Part shown: in pieces, positions 2,733 through 17,495 of the stretch
Position numbering within the stretch: the stretch's first letter is position 1
Layout of the letters: each line of letters begins with the position of its first letter
Virus record (IMG/VR): IMGVR_UViG_3300021373_000454
Coordinates: 1-23,931 of that record
Strand: one strand, 5' to 3'
DNA length: 23,931 bases
Source of the DNA: a virus
Notes under the pieces: generated by a model
Database searches by the model: none
Told to the model about the DNA's origin: nothing
The model's input: only the letters and a program-made list of their open reading frames with translations
Made by a program: the position numbers and the translations under genes

Positions 2733-3680
2733 TTAGATGAAGCTCTTAGATGCCTCTGTATTGACTGAGAATAATTCAATCTTAGAAGTGCTACTATTTG
2801 TAAGCCTGATATTTGCAAAATAACCCTTGAGTCCATAGCTTTCTGCTACGGGAGCTTTTGCTGCAAATATGTAATCATTTACTGTCGGTGTGACAGCTGA
2901 TGCACTTGTAGTGATAGAGCTACTTGTAGTTGCGCTAATTGTTCCTATCTTTTCGTATGAGTTTGCTGTTGATTTGTATAAAACGTCTCCTATTGAAACC
3001 TCAGAGGGCACATCTTGTACCGAAAAAGTATTTGATGAAACCCCTAATAGTCTCCCTATTCCTTGCACGGACAATAGCTCTGTGTTCACTTCATCCGTAG
3101 AGTTTCTTCTTATGTAGGAGTAGTGAAACCCTTCTTTCTTTTCAAAAGAAGTTTTGTCTATGTGACCAGAATCAAGGTCTGTTGTTATTGTTACATCAAA
3201 GTCTTTTGTGTCTCCCTCAATCTCTATTGTCTTAAACACCTTAACCTCTGATGGTCCATCGTTCATTGTAAACTCTATCTCAGAGTTATATTCATCACCA
3301 TAGAATGTATTCCTTACAGTGTCGTTTGCGTGATGCTTGTAAAGCTGACCGTTCTTGAATGTATAAAAATCACCATTAGAGGACACCATAGACTCTGGCT
3401 TCCAAGAGTGAAATGTTGTCCAACCATTTACATACTCACTAAAGCTAAGTGTGTAGTCATTAGCATTTGTTTGTGTAGGGTTAGGCATAGACTGTATTGA
3501 TGGTGTAGTTGTTGTAGCCGTGATACCTGTAGGCAGGTTGTTTACTGGGCAACTATCCGACAAGTACTTTTCTATGTAATCGTCCTGACCTGATACGTTT
3601 GCTTTTGTTACATTCGTAGGCTTGCCATTTATGTACTTTCTGAGTGTCTTAACTACTTTATATCCTGATCTAAATTTCAT
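2733..3680 (-). CDS. Tail protein resembling the C-terminal module of gp10-like hub proteins
   Basis: A 315-aa protein. Residues about 75-120 contain a module I associate with the C-terminal part of P22 gp10-like tail hub ('stabilization' or 'muzzle') proteins of marine and crAss-like phages: LSFSE..GWTTFHSWKPE...FYTFKNGQLYKHH, then RNTFYG and FKTIEIEG near residues 122-157. The C-terminus (GLKGYFANIRLTNSSTSKIE, about residues 283-302, then LFSVNTEASKSFI) also matches how those hubs end. The N-terminus (YINGKPTN...DDYIEKYLSDSCPVN) looks like a linker seen in the same proteins. The 1745-aa hub in this window lacks this part, so the two proteins probably complement each other at the tail tip. 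No signal peptide. The gene lies 13 nt after the 1192-aa gene. The family link is from memory of motifs and was not searched. Confidence 0.8.
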   Translation of the reverse strand: MKFRSGYKVVKTLRKYINGKPTNVTKANVSGQDDYIEKYLSDSCPVNNLPTGITATTTTPSIQSMPNPTQTNANDYTLSFSEYVNGWTTFHSWKPESMVSSNGDFYTFKNGQLYKHHANDTVRNTFYGDEYNSEIEFTMNDGPSEVKVFKTIEIEGDTKDFDVTITTDLDSGHIDKTSFEKKEGFHYSYIRRNSTDEVNTELLSVQGIGRLLGVSSNTFSVQDVPSEVSIGDVLYKSTANSYEKIGTISATTSSSITTSASAVTPTVNDYIFAAKAPVAESYGLKGYFANIRLTNSSTSKIELFSVNTEASKSFI

Positions 3681-3684
3681 ACTA

Positions 3685-3692
3685 CAAATTTA
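3685..3692 (-). promoter_or_regulatory. Possible Bacteroidota -7 box (TAAATTTG)
   Basis: The minus strand reads TAAATTTG, matching TAnnTTTG. It lies in the 13-nt gap before the 315-aa gene, with only 4 nt between the box and the ATG. If used, the transcript would begin at or near the start codon. No clear -33 TTG is visible upstream. Confidence 0.25.
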
Positions 3693-3693
3693 A

Positions 3694-6600
3694 CTAATTA
3701 CATTGATCATAATTTGGTAAGGATGCTACATCTCCTACCTCGTCTACAAAACCATCTGAGTTTACATGTATATAATTTTTATTATACTTATCTGCAAAAT
3801 CTAGCTGAACTGATGAATCTGGATTTCCTCTTTTAAATATAGAAGACTCTTCAGTGTTTCTTGATCCGTAATAACCTGATATAAATGGAGTGCTAGCATA
3901 ATCAGCGTAAAACTTAAGACCTATTATGTTTATATCTCCAGAGCTAGTAAAGATATCATGAGAACGGCTACCATTGAAAAATGTCGGAACAGTGTATCCA
4001 TCAGAATTTCTTTTAGGAAAACAAAATATAACATCACCATAAACAGGCAAACTTCCATTTATAGATTTAAAATTTGAATTTCCAGTTCCTAATGTTGTTC
4101 CACCAGAATACATACCTAGTATATGAGTAAAAGTATACCCAGAAGGAGTTGATAATATAGGTCCATTTGCTGGGTCAAAAAGATATTCTATTGATTGTCC
4201 AGAAGCAACAGCACCTGGTCGATCACCAACTGTCAATTCAGCTCTAGAATATCTTTTAAGGTTGGTAGCTGCATCAGTTCCTGTTGCATCTGTTCGCCAA
4301 AAACCATTTACATAAACTTTAGGAATAAATCCATAATACAAGAAAGCATCTCTAACAACATAATGTCCAAGCTGAGTTAGTCCTGACGTTCCAAATGATC
4401 CAGAAACAAGAGTTCCATTATTTGGTGGATTTGGAACAAGAGATGTAGGCGCAGGACCCATATCAAATACACCCTGATAAGTTGTATACTGTTGATTTGA
4501 CACTGTATCTAAAACAACTGGAAGAGTTTTACTCAATACAACTATATCAAATACTCCGTCAAATTTGCGCTGATCTCCATTACCAGTTGTGAATACTATA
4601 GAAAAAGGATCGTCAGAATAAACTTCATAATAATAACCTTGATTAGCTGATGCTTGTGTTAATGTAGTTCCAGAAGGAAGGGTTGGTGTTGTAATCGTTG
4701 TAAATATCCCTGTGTTTGAAATTGTTGGTGTTGGAGCGGGTGGTATTATAGTGACACCAAAAGCGTAGTCTGTTAGTCTCTGTGAATGAGATATAAATTT
4801 TCTGTTTTCTTCTTTATCTATAAAAACACTTGATGTTTTTTTATATTTTTTTGTTGTATTATAATCGTATTCTTTTAAAATTGACCAATTATCTATAATG
4901 TCACTTACGTTAGCAGAATAAGTTCCACTAACAATGTGACCATATGTGTGGGTCGTTCCGCTTCCTGTATTGTGGAAAAAATACAATGGCGCATCTTCTC
5001 CTGGTAATCTAATATCGGTAAACGCACCAGATGTTCCTGGAGTACCATTTACGGTTACCTCTGTAGTGTATTGATTTGCGTATTGTAAACCAGATGCAGA
5101 CTCAGTAGAGAATAATATTTGTTTTCCCGTATTTGAACTGTCACTTTGATCAAATCTAATAACACTTCCTTTTGGTCCTGAAATAGATTGATTAAATGCT
5201 GAATTACCGTCTATAACAAATATATTATTACTTGGTGACGGAGTATAAGTTTGCACTGTAACAACCTTGGTCGTAACAGTGTTATAATCTGTTGCATCTG
5301 TCCATGAGGAGGGAACTGTCCCTCCTAATCTAGTGTTTTCACCTTTTATACTAACTTTCATAAAAGCGTCAAAAAGACCAAATGTCGTAGTGCTTGATCC
5401 TAAAGGTACGTTTCTATGACCAGCAGCAGATGTACTTGTGATGGCAAATACATTTCCATTTTGTTCGTACAATGCAGGGTGGTATTCTGGATAAATATAA
5501 TTATCACCTGTTACGCTATGAGTTGCACTAATTGACGGAACATTATCTACAGACCAATTAATTCCGTAATTCCAAGATATAGCATATTCGCTTGATCCCA
5601 TATAAATACACAGTCCATTGTCTAATATTAAAAATGGTATATTTCCTTGATTAGCAGCAGTAGATTGCTGTAAATAATATGTTTCATGTGTGTTAAAAAA
5701 GTCAGTATTTTGATTAGCTGTAGATGTTCCGCTCAATCCAGCTATAATTGGTTTTATCACACAATTATCATTAGAAGTATTGTTGTCTTGACTAGGAAAA
5801 TATCTATATAACACAGAGCTTGTAACTGAAACATTGTTTTGATTTGTAAAAGTAATTCCGTCCCATCTCCATATAAATAAATAATCATATTCAATGCTTG
5901 CGTATATTCTTGATTTATTAAAATTATGCAAAACCGTTCCTGTTCCTTGTCCTTGTCCTCTTGGAGTAGTTAATTGTCCAAAAAAATCTGCGTTTCCTGG
6001 TTTTGTTTCATCAAAATCTAATATAGAAAAGGAAACAGCGTTGTCGATTGATTTTGCTAAAAAAAGTTTGTTCTCAGCAGACGCTAAAGGACCTGATATA
6101 TTTTGAGAGTCATTTAACATACATAAAGCGTACCACACATGGTTACCACTAGAGTTTACTCCAGCGTAACAAAAGTCCTCTACATATGTTTGTCTTCTAA
6201 AATTAGCTAGTGATTGATTTTGCCCAAATGTTGCAACAAGTTGACTATCTGTAGGATTAAATTGACATATTTGAAAATTAACTCCATCAGTTGATCTAGC
6301 TAATGTTCCTTGTCCAATTTGACCATCTTGTACAACTGATAAATAAATGTTGTTTTCTTTTTTTGAAAAAGAATAAGTAAGAGGATTATTAAATCTGCTT
6401 TTTAAAGCAAAATTATGAGCTCTTGTTTTTGAATGTATAACCTCTTGATAAAGGCTAGTTGATCCAGTACCTACATATTCACAATCGTCTATTTTTATAA
6501 CATTTAATGCATCATTATCCTCAATAGAAAAATAGGAACTTGATGTATAAGATACTACGCAGCTTTCTTCATACCTAATCCAATCTTTTGTAGATCTTAG

Positions 6601-7272
6601 ACCATCATCAAATATCATACTTGCTGTTCCAAAGTCTCCTGAGCAAGTTACTGTTATATCACCCCAATATATAGTTTTACTTCCTGTATAAACAGAGGTT
6701 GACACGTTAACTGTTTTAGAAAACTGCCCTGTCATAGATAAACCTGTGCCTGATGTGTGTAAACAAAAAGCATCATCCTCACTATCTATAAACCAAGTAT
6801 ATGTTTGTTGTGCTAGTGCTAAATATAAAGGATCAGAACCATAAAATGTTGTTGCGCTGTAATTAGTTATTGGCTCAAAAAAGTTAAAAGACGGAACCCC
6901 ACCTCTCATCACAATATACTCTGATGTGTTAGCACATAAATACTTTATCTTTTCTATATGAAGGTTTAGTGTGATTTCATTTGTATTATCATCTGAAGGG
7001 TTTAAATCTCCTGCTGCATACTCAAGGTTTATATTGAATGTTTGTGTGCCGTGTATACCATTTCCATTTCCATCAACCTCTCTATGATCAGTTCCCGTTG
7101 TTATAGATATGGGAGTATTATCTCCAGTTAAATCCCACTCATCACCACCTATGGTTAATATATCAGGATTCTGTACCATAGCATACCCTTCTTTTACTTT
7201 TATAGTATATACACCTATATCTCCAGAAGAGTTTTCTGCTTTTGTAACGGTCTGTAAAAGCTCTATTGCCAT
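3694..7272 (-). CDS. Putative tail spike / receptor-binding protein with Asp-box-like motifs
   Basis: A 1192-aa protein rich in Ser, Thr, Asn and Gly with alternating beta-strand character throughout, typical of phage fibres and spikes. Three segments resemble the sialidase Asp-box (SxDxGxxW/F): STDGVNF near residue 328, a weaker SIDNAVSF near 412, and SWNYGINW near 567. They suggest a beta-propeller over roughly residues 290-650. The N-terminal ~120 residues (IELLQTVTKAENSSGDIGVY onward) are a separate beta-rich part, possibly the virion attachment domain. The C-terminal half (about 650-1192) holds further beta-rich regions I cannot name. Cysteines are scattered. It sits between the hub (10 nt upstream) and the 315-aa hub-like protein, so it likely belongs to the tail tip. 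Whether it has glycosidase activity or only binds glycans cannot be told; I see no convincing sialidase arginine triad. Confidence 0.8.
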   Translation of the reverse strand: MAIELLQTVTKAENSSGDIGVYTIKVKEGYAMVQNPDILTIGGDEWDLTGDNTPISITTGTDHREVDGNGNGIHGTQTFNINLEYAAGDLNPSDDNTNEITLNLHIEKIKYLCANTSEYIVMRGGVPSFNFFEPITNYSATTFYGSDPLYLALAQQTYTWFIDSEDDAFCLHTSGTGLSMTGQFSKTVNVSTSVYTGSKTIYWGDITVTCSGDFGTASMIFDDGLRSTKDWIRYEESCVVSYTSSSYFSIEDNDALNVIKIDDCEYVGTGSTSLYQEVIHSKTRAHNFALKSRFNNPLTYSFSKKENNIYLSVVQDGQIGQGTLARSTDGVNFQICQFNPTDSQLVATFGQNQSLANFRRQTYVEDFCYAGVNSSGNHVWYALCMLNDSQNISGPLASAENKLFLAKSIDNAVSFSILDFDETKPGNADFFGQLTTPRGQGQGTGTVLHNFNKSRIYASIEYDYLFIWRWDGITFTNQNNVSVTSSVLYRYFPSQDNNTSNDNCVIKPIIAGLSGTSTANQNTDFFNTHETYYLQQSTAANQGNIPFLILDNGLCIYMGSSEYAISWNYGINWSVDNVPSISATHSVTGDNYIYPEYHPALYEQNGNVFAITSTSAAGHRNVPLGSSTTTFGLFDAFMKVSIKGENTRLGGTVPSSWTDATDYNTVTTKVVTVQTYTPSPSNNIFVIDGNSAFNQSISGPKGSVIRFDQSDSSNTGKQILFSTESASGLQYANQYTTEVTVNGTPGTSGAFTDIRLPGEDAPLYFFHNTGSGTTHTYGHIVSGTYSANVSDIIDNWSILKEYDYNTTKKYKKTSSVFIDKEENRKFISHSQRLTDYAFGVTIIPPAPTPTISNTGIFTTITTPTLPSGTTLTQASANQGYYYEVYSDDPFSIVFTTGNGDQRKFDGVFDIVVLSKTLPVVLDTVSNQQYTTYQGVFDMGPAPTSLVPNPPNNGTLVSGSFGTSGLTQLGHYVVRDAFLYYGFIPKVYVNGFWRTDATGTDAATNLKRYSRAELTVGDRPGAVASGQSIEYLFDPANGPILSTPSGYTFTHILGMYSGGTTLGTGNSNFKSINGSLPVYGDVIFCFPKRNSDGYTVPTFFNGSRSHDIFTSSGDINIIGLKFYADYASTPFISGYYGSRNTEESSIFKRGNPDSSVQLDFADKYNKNYIHVNSDGFVDEVGDVASLPNYDQCN

Positions 7273-7282
7273 AATTTATTTT

Positions 7283-10200
7283 TTAAGGAACCGTATGGTC
7301 TACCTTTGTATTGTTGTTTATACTTATGCTAAATGTCGCTTGAGCATCTCTAGTTGCGTCTAATGGATAGGGGTCTTCAGAATCAGGAACCCCATCCCCA
7401 TCATCATCGGTGTCTGTTATATCAGGCGTACCATCTCCATCAGTATCTGTAGGAGTATCAGTTGCGTCTAACGGATCTGTACCAGCAGCTATTTCGTCTG
7501 CATCTGAAAATCCGTCCCCATCGTCATCTGTATCTGTTATATCAGGTGTTCCGTCTCCGTCTGTATCTGTAGGGGTGTCTGTTGCGTCTAGCGGGTCTGA
7601 CCCTGCTGCTGTTTCATCGACATCACTAAATCCATCACCATCGTCATCTGTGTCGTAATAGTCTATAGTACTGTCTCCGTCTGTGTCTGTGGGTGTGTTT
7701 GTCTGGTTCTCAGGATCCGTTGGAAATGGATCACTATCATCAAGAGTACCATCGTTGTCATCATCCGTATCTGCGTTGTCACCCGTTCCGTCTCCATCCG
7801 TATCTATCGATTCATTAGGGTCTGTTGGAAAAACGTCTTGAGTGTCGACAACTCCGTCCCCATCATCATCTGTGTCTGCATTATCACCTGTGCCGTCACC
7901 ATCTGTATCAGTAGTTTCTGTAGGGTCTAAGGGAAATGCATCCGAACTATCTGGAGTACCATCACCGTCATCGTCTGTATCTGCATTATCTCCTGTTCCA
8001 TCTCCGTCAGTATCTACTGACTCTGCAGGGTCTAAGGGAAATGCGTCTGTAGTATCAGGCACACCATCGCCATCATCGTCCGTGTCTATAGAATCATCTA
8101 TACCATCATCGTCTGTGTCTGTCTGGATCGATGAATCTGTTGGGTCATCATCTTCAGAATCTGGTGTTCCATCATTATCGTCATCGGTATCCGTGTCATC
8201 TGGAATACCATCTCCATCAGTATCAAGTTCATCTACATCAGCAATACCGTCATTATCATCGTCTGGATCAGCGTTGTCTCCAACCCCATCTCCATCTGAA
8301 TCTGTAGTCTCATCAGGGTCTTGTGGGAATGCATCTGTTGAGTCAGGAGTGCCATCGCCATCATCATCAGTGTCGGCATTGTCCCCAGTTCCATCACCAT
8401 CAGTATCAACGCTCTCTGTAGCATCAGTTGGGAAGGCATCATCATTGTCGTTTACACCATCCCCATCAGTGTCTGCATTCGTAGAGCTTGTATCTATTTC
8501 TTGCGCATCTGGTATTCCATCATTATCATCGTCTGGATCATGTATGTCTAATATACCATCACCATCAGTATCTAATGTTATTTCTTCTTGAGGATCAAGT
8601 GGTGCTGAATCAGTAGAATCAGGTATACCATCTCCATCATCATCGGTGTCTGCGTTATCTCCTATTCCGTCCCCGTCTGTGTCTACACTTTCTGTAGCAT
8701 CAAGTGGGAAAGCATCGTTTACATCTAATACTCCATCACCATCGTCATCTGTGTCGATAGAATCCACAGTTCCGTCTCCATCCGTATCAGTATTATCATA
8801 TAGTATTTCACACTCCACTTCATCCTCTCTCCACTCTATCTGTGTTCCTTTTAGTGAAAGAGAATATTGTCTGTCTCTAGGGTCATATTGACCAATAGCT
8901 AAGGGAGGTAATCCAGCTGATAAGTTGTCGTTAAACCAATCAATCATTCCATAGTCTGATATCTGAGTGATGCCATCTTGTGATAACCTACAAACAACTC
9001 TTCTTCTCTCATCTACAAAATATATTCTACCACCCCAAAGCACTGTAGCAAATGGATTGCTAGTTATTCCATACTCTCCTAGATAAGGTATATCTTGTCC
9101 CAGTATAGCTGTACTTGCTGTGATATTAGAACTACCATCAGCATTAAATAATACGTTTTTATTAAATAAAAGCTTACTAACTTTGTTTTCTTGAAATACA
9201 ACTAAATCAGCTTCTCTTGCAACTATTTTATTGATGTCTCCAAAGAAGTCATCCATATCCTTATAGTTTACATAAGCTAAATTAAACTCATTTAAGCCAT
9301 TATATTTTGTTGTTTGATCATAAACATTACTATATGTAATTGAGGCTGTCCTGTGGTTCTTTTTGTAGTCCTTGAGGTTTGTAGAAGGTCTGTTCTCTAG
9401 CTCAAAAAACTTTGTATTAAAATCATCTTTGATTTTATATGATTCTAAGCAATTACCCCATGAAAAAACATTAAAGAAATCTAGTGTTATGCTTGCAGGA
9501 GAGTTATGAGTTTGGCTAACGTCTACATCATCTCCAAACACTACTGTAAAATCACCTCCAGCATTTGTAAAAGATCCAGAACCACTTACGTAGTTGCTTG
9601 AATCCATATTGCCTACAGAAGGGCTGTTGTTGAAGAAAGTAATTCTAGTTCCTCCAGTTACATCATATCTTTGAAAATACTGAACTGCAATGGTTATAGT
9701 GGCACTACCTTGTGTAAGCGTTAATTCTTTACCATTGCCATTACCAAAACTTCCGTTGTTTGGACCGCTTCCTCCAGTAAAATAATTTGCAAATGCTGTA
9801 TAAGAATCAGTATCAAGAGCTATTTGAATTTGATAACCATTACTAGTAAAAGGATCAGATGAAAGTGCAGGAAAGTTATCCCAATTATCACTGTCTGGAT
9901 AATTATTAGTGTTTGTGTATCCTATTGTGGAGGCTGCGCTTAAATTGGTATTTCCTTGTGTTAATGTAGAAGTATCTTCTGGCACTAGTCCAGCACCAAC
10001 AGGTCCAGATTGGTGGTATCCTTGTGTTATATTGTATGTTCCAGGTATCTCGTAGAATATCTCTTCATTTTTATCTTCTGGTCTAGTTTCGAATGACAAT
10101 ATATCTGATGACTGTCTTTTAAGAAAGCTAATAAGAGAGTCAATCTTTGGCTTTTTATCTAAAGCATTATTTTTAGTGCCTAGAGACCTAATTATCATCA

Positions 10201-12520
10201 ATATATTATCTGATGTACTGTTAGTTATTGTGGACTCTTTAGCTGCAAACGTACCCCTTAAAAAGAATATTCTGTCCTCTGGAATGTCTGCGTTTAGGGT
10301 TGCTTTAGCTCCGCTTTCGTGATACCACTCTTCTATGTTAGCATAGTCTGCGTTAGCTGTAAACTGTTGAGCAACATATTGTGTTTCTTCATTAAACTCA
10401 TCATAAACAAAGTCTACAATTGTTCCTAATGGTATTTCCTCTACTGCCTGATCAAATGATCTATAGGTGGCAAATGCTTTTGTGTTTGGAGTGTAGGGGA
10501 ATGTAGATGGTCTTGCATTTACAGTCCATTTATCTCCTAGTGTATGACCAGTGTTTGAGGCAAAGTCAACACTTAACCCAGTTCCAGGTATAGCTATTGG
10601 CGTACCTGATGTTATGGATTGACTAGTAGTTGTTGATCCTGTGTTGGGGTCATTGTCTAAAGTTTGTACAGTAGTAGTAAAAGTATCACCTCCTGCGTTA
10701 ACAGAATCAATTTCAATGATTATCCTTGAAAATATATTTGACGTTGTATAAGATCCAGATATAGTGACGTCTGTTGCAAGTGCAGAGCCTCCAGACCCTG
10801 AATAAGGAAAAGGACCTTCAATATATGCCCCTACTGTTTGTGAATTTTTTAAAGGATCATCCCTATCGTTAGCTGTATCATCGTAATCATCATGCTCTGT
10901 AAGCTCATAATCGTCTGTAGAAACAGAAAACCCTACTGGCTTTATCTTCATATACAACCCAGCTTGTTGAGCTATTGGTGGATCGTTAGTGTCTGGGTAA
11001 TCATCTGCCTCTAAAAAGTTTTTGTCTTGAAGTTTTATCTCAAGGACTTGAGTCTCAACTAAGTTTGTTTTTTGACCTCTTGTGTCTGCCTTTACTATAA
11101 GGAAATCACCTTCTTGTATTTTGTTTTTATCATTCCCATTTAGCTGCACATAAACATAACCAGTTTCTGCCTCATTATAAAATATAGAAGGAGTTATTGT
11201 GTCATACCTGCCTTTACTTTGTTTTACATAGAATCTGTAGTATTTAGCAAAAGCTGGTGGTAAATGACTTATAGTTGCATTTATTTGGTTTTGAGTTTTT
11301 GAAGCACTCAGAGGAACATTTACCGTGGCATTATTTGATGTTATAACTGAAGTAGACCTTCCGTAGTCATCTAAATACACTATACCCACCTCATAGTCTA
11401 CGTTTGACTTTATAGACTTAGCTACGCTTGGTGAGGTTATTTGAGATGTGTTAAGGGTTGCGTTTATATTAAAAGGTATAGCGTCTCCGTTTGCATCTTT
11501 TAAGTCAAAGTTTTCCGTATAGTTAGCATAAACGATCCTGTTACCTATCATTTGCTGCGTCTTAGCAGTAAGCGGAACATTGTCGTACACCCTTAGTAAT
11601 TCTTTTTCTGGAAGAACACTATAGACTTTGCTGTTTGAGAACGTGTGTACCTTTGTGCTGTTATCAGCTATTGATTCTTCCTCCTTATTAAAAGTTTGTG
11701 CAACATATACATTGTTGCTGTTGCTTTCCTTAAAAACTAAGTCTATCTCTACAACATTACTTGTACCTGTCTTAAATGTAACATCTACTTGACTGTAGCT
11801 ATTCACCATAGATTTATTTAAACCTGTAGCAAAATCAAAAGAAAAGTCACCTGGTAGAAAAGCAACCTCACTAAATGGAGAAAGTGCACTATATTCACCG
11901 TGTTTATACTTAAACCTATAGGCAAAATAAATAAACCTTTCTTTAATGTTGTTTTCATTAGTAGAAGAGGTGCCTAAAGATAACGTAGGGGCTTCAAGAG
12001 GTGGTTGTTGCACCACGTCTACATCGTATTTTGTAAATGCATTAGCATCTATAAGCTTTGCCGACTCTATCTCTATTCTTCTAGGTGGGTTAATGCCATC
12101 AGTAAAAAACAAAAACCTTTTATCGTTGTCAATATCTATAAGTATATTAGACTCTATAAAGTTTGTTTTGTAGAAGTTCAAGACATTAGTCTTCCAAGAC
12201 CTTGTGTCTTTCAGGACAAAAGTAGAGCTGTCGTTGTCTACATCATACTCACATATGAATGAACCCGTATCAGACCTTACAAACCAATATATTTTATTAT
12301 TAGCATCGTCAGACACAGACCCTATGGAAACTGGATTAGCGCCAAAGTCTAGCTGCGACAAACCTTCATTTGAAGGTGAGTTTTCAATAGCCCCCACATC
12401 AGATGCAGATGAGCCAGAAACTCTTATATTTAGTGCGTCTCTATACTCTCCTTTTGGAACAAGCCTTTCATCAAGGTCCTTGTTCATTTTTCCAAGGTTA
12501 AATATGTTTTTTAACTTCAT
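7283..12520 (-). CDS. P22 gp10-like tail hub protein with C-terminal TSP3 stalk
   Basis: A 1745-aa protein. The N-terminus (about residues 5-45, with FNLGKMNKDLDERLVPKGEY and then DALNIRVS...DVGAIEN) is the signature I associate with gp10-like DNA-stabilization/hub proteins of podoviruses, called muzzle in crAss-like phages, which close the tail end as a beta-propeller ring. Residues about 573-668 look like an inserted beta domain ending GHTLGDKW. Near 1090-1222 the propeller motifs reappear (FFGDINKIVAREADLVVFQE, then RIYFVDERRRVVCRLSQDG and GQYDPRDRQYSLSLKG). Where family members usually continue into a GW-S-F...YFTFKNG module, this protein switches at about residue 1240 to 14 TSP3 units (to about 1723), rich in Asp for calcium binding. 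A ~22-residue tail ends ...TKVDHTVP. The start codon overlaps the upstream stop by one base (TAATG), suggesting coupled translation. Family assignment is by motif memory. Confidence 0.88.
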   Translation of the reverse strand: MKLKNIFNLGKMNKDLDERLVPKGEYRDALNIRVSGSSASDVGAIENSPSNEGLSQLDFGANPVSIGSVSDDANNKIYWFVRSDTGSFICEYDVDNDSSTFVLKDTRSWKTNVLNFYKTNFIESNILIDIDNDKRFLFFTDGINPPRRIEIESAKLIDANAFTKYDVDVVQQPPLEAPTLSLGTSSTNENNIKERFIYFAYRFKYKHGEYSALSPFSEVAFLPGDFSFDFATGLNKSMVNSYSQVDVTFKTGTSNVVEIDLVFKESNSNNVYVAQTFNKEEESIADNSTKVHTFSNSKVYSVLPEKELLRVYDNVPLTAKTQQMIGNRIVYANYTENFDLKDANGDAIPFNINATLNTSQITSPSVAKSIKSNVDYEVGIVYLDDYGRSTSVITSNNATVNVPLSASKTQNQINATISHLPPAFAKYYRFYVKQSKGRYDTITPSIFYNEAETGYVYVQLNGNDKNKIQEGDFLIVKADTRGQKTNLVETQVLEIKLQDKNFLEADDYPDTNDPPIAQQAGLYMKIKPVGFSVSTDDYELTEHDDYDDTANDRDDPLKNSQTVGAYIEGPFPYSGSGGSALATDVTISGSYTTSNIFSRIIIEIDSVNAGGDTFTTTVQTLDNDPNTGSTTTSQSITSGTPIAIPGTGLSVDFASNTGHTLGDKWTVNARPSTFPYTPNTKAFATYRSFDQAVEEIPLGTIVDFVYDEFNEETQYVAQQFTANADYANIEEWYHESGAKATLNADIPEDRIFFLRGTFAAKESTITNSTSDNILMIIRSLGTKNNALDKKPKIDSLISFLKRQSSDILSFETRPEDKNEEIFYEIPGTYNITQGYHQSGPVGAGLVPEDTSTLTQGNTNLSAASTIGYTNTNNYPDSDNWDNFPALSSDPFTSNGYQIQIALDTDSYTAFANYFTGGSGPNNGSFGNGNGKELTLTQGSATITIAVQYFQRYDVTGGTRITFFNNSPSVGNMDSSNYVSGSGSFTNAGGDFTVVFGDDVDVSQTHNSPASITLDFFNVFSWGNCLESYKIKDDFNTKFFELENRPSTNLKDYKKNHRTASITYSNVYDQTTKYNGLNEFNLAYVNYKDMDDFFGDINKIVAREADLVVFQENKVSKLLFNKNVLFNADGSSNITASTAILGQDIPYLGEYGITSNPFATVLWGGRIYFVDERRRVVCRLSQDGITQISDYGMIDWFNDNLSAGLPPLAIGQYDPRDRQYSLSLKGTQIEWREDEVECEILYDNTDTDGDGTVDSIDTDDDGDGVLDVNDAFPLDATESVDTDGDGIGDNADTDDDGDGIPDSTDSAPLDPQEEITLDTDGDGILDIHDPDDDNDGIPDAQEIDTSSTNADTDGDGVNDNDDAFPTDATESVDTDGDGTGDNADTDDDGDGTPDSTDAFPQDPDETTDSDGDGVGDNADPDDDNDGIADVDELDTDGDGIPDDTDTDDDNDGTPDSEDDDPTDSSIQTDTDDDGIDDSIDTDDDGDGVPDTTDAFPLDPAESVDTDGDGTGDNADTDDDGDGTPDSSDAFPLDPTETTDTDGDGTGDNADTDDDGDGVVDTQDVFPTDPNESIDTDGDGTGDNADTDDDNDGTLDDSDPFPTDPENQTNTPTDTDGDSTIDYYDTDDDGDGFSDVDETAAGSDPLDATDTPTDTDGDGTPDITDTDDDGDGFSDADEIAAGTDPLDATDTPTDTDGDGTPDITDTDDDGDGVPDSEDPYPLDATRDAQATFSISINNNTKVDHTVP
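7350..8788 (-). repeat. 14-unit TSP3 (DxDGDGxxD) coding repeat array
   Basis: About 1.44 kb encoding 14 units that each begin DTDGDG or a close variant, usually followed by xxDxxDTDDDGDG and a spacer such as DAFPLDPTES. Units average ~34 residues. The last three (hub residues ~1600-1723) use a different spacer, AAGxDPLDATDTPT, and the fourth unit is shortened. The Asp ladders are the calcium ligands of thrombospondin type 3 repeats, which form stiff calcium-dependent rods. Unit copies are closely alike as protein but differ at many third codon positions, for example near 7429-7480 versus 7549-7600. The reverse strand shows long Ser/Pro reading frames that are by-products of this repeat. Confidence 0.92.
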
Positions 12521-16322: not shown

Positions 16323-17495
16323 TTATCGTTTTCTAATTTTAAACGAAAAATTATCTCCTGAGTCTACCGCTCTAAACTTTGTGCCTCCAGTATCGGTTGG
16401 TGTGTTTGACCTAACACTCATATCGATGTTTTTAGTCTCCTTCACTAGTCCGTCTGTTGCATCTGCCTTACCCTGCTCGTAAGCGAACTGAAATAAAGCA
16501 TCAGCGTTAGTGGCTGCAAACAAAGCCTTATGATAAGATGCCGCATCCTTCACGATCCCCTTTTCATCTAAGTGCTTGTTAAAGAAGTTATTTATGTCTA
16601 ACTGATTCTCTTTAACCTTACTTACATCATTAGGTTTAAAAACTTGCTTTTTATCTCCGACTTTAAACTCAAAACCTTTGAACTCATCATTGAATAGGGC
16701 ATTTGTTTTTTCTTGGAAGATGCGAGATCTATCTTTCTGCGTTGCAGACTCTTGATCTAATTCTTCTTGGTATTTAGTATAAAAGTTAAAAGCTTCTTTG
16801 TAGTTTTCTGGAATCTCGGCTTCTCTTGACTCAAGGGGAGCTTTGTATTTTTCCTTCATTCCTTCAAAGTAGTTTCTAGCTTTATATAACTCTTCTTTGT
16901 ACGCAATCTTTTTCTTCTTAATGTCTTTTTCTTCATCAAGCTCTGAATCAAAACTGAACTCCTCATTAATAAGGTAGTCAATCTCCTCAGCATCAAGGTG
17001 TGGCTTTTCTTGCTTGTAATACTCACGCAACACGTTAGTATCATCCATAGCATTCCAGTCTTGCTGAAGCCTAGCATAATCCTCAAAGGATCTACCAGTC
17101 TCCTGCTTGTACTTCATGAAGTTAGCCACATCCTCTGGTAAAGGTTGCGTTTCTTCTTTGTCATTATTTAAAAGAACGTCTAAAGACTCCGCTTCTACGT
17201 TTCGTCTTTCTTTTAAGTAGTTTAATATACTTTGGTCATCAAGCTCAATCGGCTTGGCTACTACTTCTTCTTTTTCTTGTACATCTTCGACTTGCTCTTG
17301 GGCTTGCTCTTCGATGTTTTCTTCGGATACGGCATCTGTCGTTTCTTTAACTAATTCTTTTTCTTCTTGTACAGTCTCTTGCACTTGTTCTTGTACGTTT
17401 TCTTGTACAGGTTCTTGTACGTCCTCTTGTACACTTTCTTGTTTTGGCTCTATAGGATTACCTTCGGCATCCAAAGCTCTTAATTTCCATTCCAT
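16323..17495 (-). CDS. Scaffold-like acidic coiled-coil protein
   Basis: A 390-aa, very acidic, helix-rich protein between portal and major capsid genes, the usual place for a scaffolding protein. Residues 1-18 are a short conserved-looking start (MEWKLRALDAEGNP). Residues 20-45 are six VQE tetrapeptide repeats, and acidic helices continue to about 90. The middle (~100-260) is charged helix with few hydrophobic residues. The C-terminus ends in a basic patch (FSFKIRKR), the kind of charged tail that scaffolds use to touch the capsid protein. No protease triad is visible. The ATG at 17495 is the first in frame. A TAATTTTG box lies 21 nt upstream. Scaffold role is inferred from position and composition. 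Confidence 0.75.
   Translation of the reverse strand: MEWKLRALDAEGNPIEPKQESVQEDVQEPVQENVQEQVQETVQEEKELVKETTDAVSEENIEEQAQEQVEDVQEKEEVVAKPIELDDQSILNYLKERRNVEAESLDVLLNNDKEETQPLPEDVANFMKYKQETGRSFEDYARLQQDWNAMDDTNVLREYYKQEKPHLDAEEIDYLINEEFSFDSELDEEKDIKKKKIAYKEELYKARNYFEGMKEKYKAPLESREAEIPENYKEAFNFYTKYQEELDQESATQKDRSRIFQEKTNALFNDEFKGFEFKVGDKKQVFKPNDVSKVKENQLDINNFFNKHLDEKGIVKDAASYHKALFAATNADALFQFAYEQGKADATDGLVKETKNIDMSVRSNTPTDTGGTKFRAVDSGDNFSFKIRKR
17364..17432 (-). repeat. 12-bp tandem repeat encoding VQEx x6
   Basis: Six copies of a 12-nt unit, GTACAAGAA (or a one-base variant) plus a variable codon, encode VQE followed by D, P, N, Q, T or E at residues 22-45 of the scaffold-like protein. The period is exactly four codons, so copy-number change would keep the frame. 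Confidence 0.85.

Follow-up and report, generated by a model that had tools for sequence, protein, structure and literature searches.

Gene arrangement at the locus

The window (the whole stretch of DNA analysed here, a 23.9-kb virus record from IMG/VR) carries its large ORFs on the minus strand. Three of them are the subject of this report: a hub gene, P0001 (12520-7283, 1745 aa), a spike-like gene, P0002 (7272-3694, 1192 aa), and the gene of a 315-aa protein, P0003 (3680-2733). They are separated by spacers of 10 bp and 13 bp, and each is open from end to end. A sequence-only reading of the same DNA had given this layout, which we recovered unchanged. According to PHROG profiles, other products of the window include the capsid-like P0010 (PHROG 13704), structural proteins of PHROGs 13977 and 14543, and P0004 (PHROG 13764); a short tandem repeat, VQE-rich in the protein, lies at 17364-17442 in the neighbour gene of the capsid protein. 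By hub comparison, the closest named relatives are an uncultured spring-water podovirus and phages that infect Flavobacterium, Cellulophaga, Tenacibaculum and Maribacter; comparison of the muzzle C-terminal module (MUZ_C) adds Bacteroides phages more weakly. The known relatives of the virus infect Bacteroidetes bacteria. The features of the locus, in the order in which the minus strand encodes them, are as follows.

8843..12520, minus strand: hub (muzzle) core, residues 1-1226 (PHROG 14478, Pfam crAss_MUZ, two-piece alignment to intact hubs ending at 1226)
8789..8842, minus strand: hub exit segment, residues 1227-1244, composed of EW, six residues and C (in split hubs belonging to the window's clade, this motif comes immediately behind the last hub strand)
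7370..8788, minus strand: TSP3 stalk, residues 1245-1717, with 26 D.D.DG..D motifs (Pfam TSP_3/TSP3_bac, motif positions and shuffle count)
7286..7345, minus strand: C-terminal 20 residues of the hub chain, a candidate docking site of the spike (SINN..KVD kept)
3694..7272, minus strand: spike-like gene P0002, 1192 aa (partial tail-fibre family match, matches to phage tail-fibre/virion proteins, exchange between phages)
3531..3671, minus strand: N-terminal module of P0003, residues 4-50 (the same module starts interposed genes in related loci)
2736..3455, minus strand: MUZ_C, displaced C-terminal module of the muzzle, P0003 residues 76-315 (Pfam crAss_MUZ_C, abuts hub 1226 as judged against L038, fold of gp44 1200-1371)

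Muzzle sequence divided between two genes

In profile searches against muzzle families, the hub matches PHROG 14478 (E 2e-257) and Pfam crAss_MUZ (46.9 bits, cut-off 27, with the best stretch at residues 1080-1200), and P0003 matches Pfam crAss_MUZ_C (58.1 bits, cut-off 27). How the two proteins belong together can be seen in a related locus, L038, whose intact hub has 1297 aa. Residues 1-837 of the window hub align to L038 1-830 (37% identity), 927-1226 to 756-1057 (42%), and P0003 76-314 to 1058-1296 (46%). The junction is seamless with no residue missing, and because the counterpart of hub 1226 (L038 1057) abuts that of P0003 76 (L038 1058), the two window proteins flank a single point of the muzzle. 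The intact hub of phi38:1 gives a similar picture: hub residues 1-842 and 1000-1225 align to it, ending at phi38:1 residue 1076, and P0003 residue 76 resumes at 1078. With both intact hubs, the alignment of P0003 ends at most two residues from the C-terminus. In the DNA of the window the cut extends from 8843 to 3455, with 5,387 bp between the halves. A second variable spot of the hub is found at about 9520-9940 (residues ~860-1000), where ~140 residues are missing from L019 and L015.

The sequence-only reading had taken the 315-aa protein for the missing module of a split hub, and the family matches and the seamless junction bear this out; its junction, put at hub residues 1210-1222, was near the right place and is moved by the alignment to about 1226. 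It had also supposed that intact hubs carry the module directly after the propeller, and we found this arrangement in one ORF in phi38:1, Gundel_1, two elemo phages and crAss001 gp44. Homologues of P0003 with 54-100% identity are separate genes wherever the sample permits a judgement (L035 is cut by the contig end and stays outside the judgement), and the homologue at 46%, in L038, is joined. The split model is thereby supported. The definition of the crassvirus muzzle has both domains in one polypeptide; in the window they occupy two ORFs, with the homologous parts 5.39 kb apart, and judged from its genes the window muzzle is a two-chain variant, not a standard member of that group.

Directly after the cut point, the motif EW plus six residues plus C is common to the split hubs of the window's clade, irrespective of the cargo downstream. 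At the C-terminus of the L111 hub, this exit motif is present three times within about 40 residues as EWREDTYEC.

The displaced module and its N-terminal addition

With 47 rows as input, AlphaFold models P0003 at a mean pLDDT of 74; the ten-residue blocks of 131-310 are at 82-95 except for one at 71, and the first 90 residues are poor. Foldseek with this model places crAss001 gp44 on top (7qok_A, E 5e-6; 7qol_P, E 1.5e-5), with TM-scores that are low, 0.27 and 0.37 by query length. A second structure aligner gives Z 9.5 for 7qol_P and Z 9.4 for 7qok_A, the next entry being at 7.9. In the superposition with Z 9.5, residues 76-312 of the model lie on the extreme C-terminus of gp44 (1200-1371) over 147 residues, with rmsd 3.6 and 24% identity. 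A sequence profile search of the PDB also finds gp44 (E 4e-10), and direct sequence searches of the PDB with P0003 and with the intact phi38:1 hub gave nothing at E 1. The place of the module after gp44 residue 1200 suggests that it comprises the last blade strands and the C-terminal, ring-side domain of the muzzle.

The first part of P0003 has a different affiliation. Residues 4-50 resemble the N-termini of interposed proteins, with 16 matches between hub and MUZ_C, none upstream or downstream, and 7 unplaced, and the same module starts 30 MUZ_C genes of the window's clade (near-copies are counted in both figures). The ~45-residue module has the consensus G.K.V.TLRKY..G..T..TK.N....DY......C and is carried by interposed genes in L036, L037, L043, L052, L116, L143, L157 and L160; in L185 a gene with this tag lies directly before MUZ_C. 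The simplest reading is that the extra ~50 residues of P0003 would be the head of the last cargo gene, fused to MUZ_C. That the module works as a docking tag is a guess.

This addition has to be considered in asking whether the free MUZ_C still builds the muzzle at all, since a separate gene with an N-terminal module common to interposed genes could have taken another role, such as a chaperone, cargo or a free capping protein. We consider this quite improbable. The MUZ_C core is kept in split and joined forms alike, with 12 invariant columns in 47 sequences; no second MUZ_C copy was found in the 23.9-kb record, which may be a fragment; and the window hub is without the MUZ_C part that is present in the joined relatives examined.

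Stalk and spike

Beyond the exit segment the hub enters TSP3 repeats, as the sequence-only reading had noticed. Pfam TSP_3 scores 51.9 bits and TSP3_bac 43 bits (cut-off 25 each), in keeping with the definition of TSP3 repeats, and 26 D.D.DG..D motifs occur in residues 1241-1720, as compared with 0.9 on average and at most 7 in 2,000 shuffles of the same residues. Repeats of the TSP3 type bind calcium. The tail of the hub chain, with SINN..KVD, is kept in TSP3-type hubs that precede a spike of the P0002 type (the window, L009, L019 and L034); in L031 and L033 the hub tail differs from SINN..KVD and the spikes begin differently. This pattern suggests that the last ~20 residues of the stalk probably hold the separately encoded spike.

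The spike itself is less easily classified. P0002 matches no Pfam family at E 0.5, no domain for receptor binding or enzyme activity is recognised in it, and a profile of seven spikes finds nothing in the PDB at the same level. PHROG 30742 matches one of the seven. A Pfam match to LbH_EIF2B was obtained for one spike other than P0002 (E 2e-4, one of seven) and was taken as chance. The AlphaFold model of the spike has a mean pLDDT of 34.5, too low to be usable. Residues 680-785 (window 4918-5235) are similar to tail-fibre/virion proteins of cyanophages and a Pelagibacter phage, and this region may be cupredoxin-like. The gene lies between the two halves, as the sequence-only reading had said. 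The label "Asp-box-like", given there to the 1192-aa protein, is weak: its S-x-D-x-G-x-[TS]-W motifs number one strict and two relaxed, a level reached by 3-4% of 1,000 shuffles, and P0002 has no match to a BNR/sialidase profile.

Exchange of the spike between phages

Two related contigs make the history of the spike visible: IMGVR_3300034375_005925 (L009 and L026 in our scans) and IMGVR_3300042731_003085 (L019 and L024). The window and L026 are 100% identical in the major capsid protein (MCP), in three neighbouring proteins and in MUZ_C, 99.7% in the hub, and 81.5% in the spike. The spikes of L009/L026 and L019/L024 are 97.1% identical, and L019/L024 compared with the window has 71% identity in MCP, about 78% in the hub, 54% in MUZ_C and 48% in the 285-aa protein before the hub. 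Along the DNA, the identity between the window and L026 is 97-100% down to ~7690, 0.95-0.92 over the stalk end and the spike start and 0.65-0.95 within the spike, and it returns to 0.99-1.00 from ~3815 to the end of MUZ_C. Between L026 and L024 the pattern is reversed, with 0.57-0.87 outside the spike and 0.92-1.00 inside. Because the identity switches abruptly at the spike, we attribute the pattern to recombination; the spike gene moves between phages in this manner, independently of the backbone. When the window spike is compared with that of L010, which is of the same type as in L009, most variation is at residues 450-650 and 750-850. From the gene exchange and the position we infer that stalk and spike may form an exchangeable host-recognition cassette, and they could also be a decoration rather than an adhesin. 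Another mosaic border is observed downstream of MUZ_C at 443-2699, where the window and L026 diverge (P0004 60% over 146 residues, P0005 26% over 129).

Split and joined forms among related phages

Viral contigs were scanned with P0003 alone (12 loci), with an alignment having P0003 as its first sequence (80 of 467 confirmed candidates) and with an alignment of joined hubs (80 of 382); the 80-locus scans overlap the earlier loci, and the sampling is led by the chosen queries. The pooled set adds named phages and five spike-led loci, and removal of identical MUZ_C copies reduced it from 157 to 123 rows. Loci whose hub end could not be placed were kept out of the tree, with the exception of crAss001 and Fpv3, as were MUZ_C fragments shorter than 150 aa.

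The 123 sampled rows with different MUZ_C sequences comprise 77 split (window included) and 46 joined ones, and the best 80 of 382 in the scan led by joined hubs comprise 52 joined, 17 split and 11 incomplete. The spacing between hub and MUZ_C has two humps. Of the joined rows, 44 were measured (all but crAss001 and Fpv3), and 43 of these lie at -5 to 55 nt; the 76 measured split rows span 678 to 9,057 nt. The 44th joined row is Maribacter phage Panino (372 nt), which has an intact junction and an ORF break upstream. In Panino (L003, 6653-6764) the hub similarity spans the break, which may be a sequencing error, a frameshift or a second kind of split; we had counted it as a split locus and recoded it as joined, since the junction is intact and the ORF break lies upstream of it.

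Trees were built from hub and MUZ_C sequences. In a quick tree of the 123 rows rooted on crAss001, in which crAss001 and Fpv3 are joined, at least five changes of state are needed, four of them forced by branches with at least 95% SH-aLRT; the trees have long branches and no bootstrap, and the number of events is approximate. The first tree gives four changes with Panino as split, five after recoding and four with Panino uncounted; the 123-row tree uses the recoding. As nearest kin of the window, the first tree gives L019, and the 123-row tree, for which a shorter part of the hub was used, gives L031/L033. To judge from these trees, the cut appears to be old and recurrent, with the split state arising or being lost several times, the number of events being approximate. 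A recent insertion specific to the window phage was ruled out, because the sampled clade holding the window (15 rows in the 123-row tree) is split throughout.

The split form is also seen outside viral contigs. Of 20 loci on genome contigs, 10 have the split form and 5 the joined one, and in the other 5 the hub end could not be placed; Aquimarina longa and Myroides odoratus have the split form on long host contigs, and contigs of Aquimarina algiphila and Wenyingzhuangia have the joined form. These occurrences bear on the suspicion that the two halves are one gene broken by an assembly error, a frameshift or pseudogene decay, which might be raised by the metagenomic origin of the contig and by the Panino break, though the latter lies further upstream. 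The recurrence of this layout in contigs from three metagenomes (L009, L010 and L011, the last with a partial hub) and of the split in named isolates and host contigs, together with the full-length opening of the three window ORFs, leaves this explanation a negligible probability, and the independent copies rule out an assembly or frameshift artefact.

Other occupants of the cut site

The layout of the window is found in L009, L010 and L019, and L011 and L034 show as much of it as their contigs contain. In L012 and L014-L018 a single hub ORF of 2357-2572 aa is followed by MUZ_C 2 to 23 nt on; L015 and L017 were confirmed to have TSP3 repeats, and no similarity to P0002 is seen at the C-terminal ends of L015, L016 and L017. 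The stalks of L031 and L033 are S/T-rich, and their spikes are longer proteins related to P0002 (28-30% identity over ~700 residues). In these two loci (L031 ~1395-1415, L033 ~1325-1340) the hub ORF ends at an identical ten-T run, and the ORF of the S/T-rich stalk resumes in frame after the loss of one T; the run, found in two distinct phages, can be either programmed slippage or a real stop.

Some occupants are of a quite different type. Between hub and MUZ_C, L043 (5533-8798) has 2OG-oxygenase-like, O-fucosyltransferase-like (PF10250) and NAD-epimerase-like (PF01370) genes, which are possibly for sugar decoration of the tail. In L185 (1205-3436), a Bacteroidetes MAG contig, three genes possibly of glycosyltransferase type, as judged by eye, precede the tagged gene and MUZ_C. 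Longer proteins end in the MUZ_C domain in L049, L189 and L191, where it starts at residue 381, 380 and 326, respectively, so cargo can be present on the MUZ_C side too and the free subunit is not always clean; the part ahead of it (325-380 residues; L049 8879-10756, L189 3321-5246, L191 7053-8816) is cargo-like. L203 was considered as a joined hub with a large insert (436 nt) and was rejected, since by eye the insert precedes the last hub strand and only ~20 residues of linker are at the junction.

The stalk and spike of the window are, in short, what currently fills a site where other loci have 0.7-9 kb of different cargo. The idea of the sequence-only reading that a hub was opened to receive the host-recognition cassette holds in that the hub is split and the module freed; the cut was not made for this particular cassette, as the sampled clade is wholly split and its cargo varies.

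The same observations can be read otherwise: the split may be ancestral in the window's lineage, the interval gathering tail genes, and stalk and spike being ordinary tail-fibre genes without a special link to the cut. The all-split clade, the widely varying cargo with its metabolic-type genes and the cargo domains on the MUZ_C side would all fit this account. We regard it as unlikely, because the stalk is covalent with the hub chain and begins a few residues past the last hub strand, and because the joined loci measured, Panino aside, have at most 55 nt at the junction, the insert of L203 being located before the last strand. Together these observations indicate that cutting is tied to carrying cargo.

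Proposed arrangement of the two-chain muzzle

We propose, with a probability of roughly 0.8, that the locus encodes a crAss-like muzzle made of two polypeptides, whose cut end carries a stalk and a swappable spike at a shared hot spot. The hub chain would supply the muzzle body up to one inter-strand loop and the 315-aa chain the C-terminal module, and the two would pack together non-covalently in the virion, where relatives have a single chain. Since the hub chain stops at the cut and does not turn back into the body, its end is free to extend outward, presumably as a calcium-stiffened TSP3 stalk, and the spike held by the stalk end would probably bind the host surface. In related phages the cut site serves as a shared hot spot for other stalks, spikes and genes of sugar-modifying type.

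This arrangement can be extended to a general rule, to which we give slightly better than even odds: insertion of a large receptor-side module into one inter-strand loop of the muzzle propeller would always entail a cut of the chain there, with the new C-terminus becoming a stalk, and with the last blade and the C-terminal domain returning as a free protein that closes the propeller non-covalently. The site would then be a plug-in port reused in many flavobacterial-type phages, whose stalks are of the TSP3, S/T-rich or fused kind and many of whose interposed proteins share the ~45-residue N-terminal tag. Once a chain has ended in a distant stalk, it can no longer come back to complete the propeller, and this would account for the association of large inserts with the cut in our sample.

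In crAss-like phages the muzzle acts as the gate and, according to the published model, is probably the tip that contacts the host. A hub site that is recurrently cut, bears cargo and swaps spikes points to where host range may be set, and candidate receptor-binding genes in uncultured relatives can be looked for between hub and MUZ_C. The locus also offers a testable case of a two-chain propeller in the virion, for which the split-muzzle isolates phi19:3 and phi13:2 exist.

Comparison with known systems

The nearest known structure is crAss001 gp44 (PDB 7qok/7qol), described as a hexamer with a ring-joining domain and a seven-bladed propeller, whose chain also makes two Ig-like domains and a crass domain, with the IG2 region at residues 318-1021 (PMC10172136). 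In the section of that paper on the muzzle, differences in length are put down to insertions into the crass and IG2 regions, away from the cut site, and no split is mentioned (PMC10172136). The window hub and P0003 match the same muzzle families as gp44, and P0003 76-312 has the fold of gp44 1200-1371; gp44, however, is a single chain of 1371 aa from one CDS, whereas the window has two chains. We view the two-chain, cargo-bearing form as a variant of the known crAss-like muzzle, whose mechanism, beyond the gene anatomy, is a proposal. Among the titles and abstract openings surveyed, none names a split muzzle or a TSP3-repeat stalk on it, which is weak evidence because most subscription journals are outside the coverage.

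Split hub genes are visible in the public records of phi19:3, phi13:2 and the Manatee Spring podovirus MW202828, with annotations that pass over it. The Cellulophaga phages phi19:3 and phi13:2 (gp120 and gp121) are listed as Pachyviridae, genus Baltivirus. Their hub ORF continues beyond the last hub strand, and MUZ_C has a gene of its own, with 241 aa and the annotation of a structural protein; unlike the window, they have no gene between hub and MUZ_C. By protein similarity alone, phi18:3 and phi46:3 have 97-99% copies of the 241-aa protein. For the Cellulophaga phages, the record annotation would place the free MUZ_C in the virion; phi8:3, whose virion proteins are the basis of these annotations, is not among the 12 records listed out of 87. 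MW202828 is like the window in having an extended hub, a small gene and then a separate MUZ_C gene, but its cargo differs, being a 183-aa gene annotated as a putative glycosidase.

A more distant likeness is to podophage nozzles. MUZ_C weakly matches 7ey9_s 523-790 (listed as "tail proteins", and which we take to be T7 gp12) with Z 5.7, where a Z below 8 may mean a common arrangement only, and 7boy_s, listed as T7 gp12, has Foldseek E 0.22 to the MUZ_C model. The T7 nozzle gp12 and other podophage nozzles are known as single chains.

In the behaviour of its spike, the window resembles phages with modular tailspikes, which are exchanged by recombination: in both, a receptor-side gene is swapped between near-identical backbones. 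Unlike modular tailspikes in general, the module of the window comes after the cut end of the tail hub itself.
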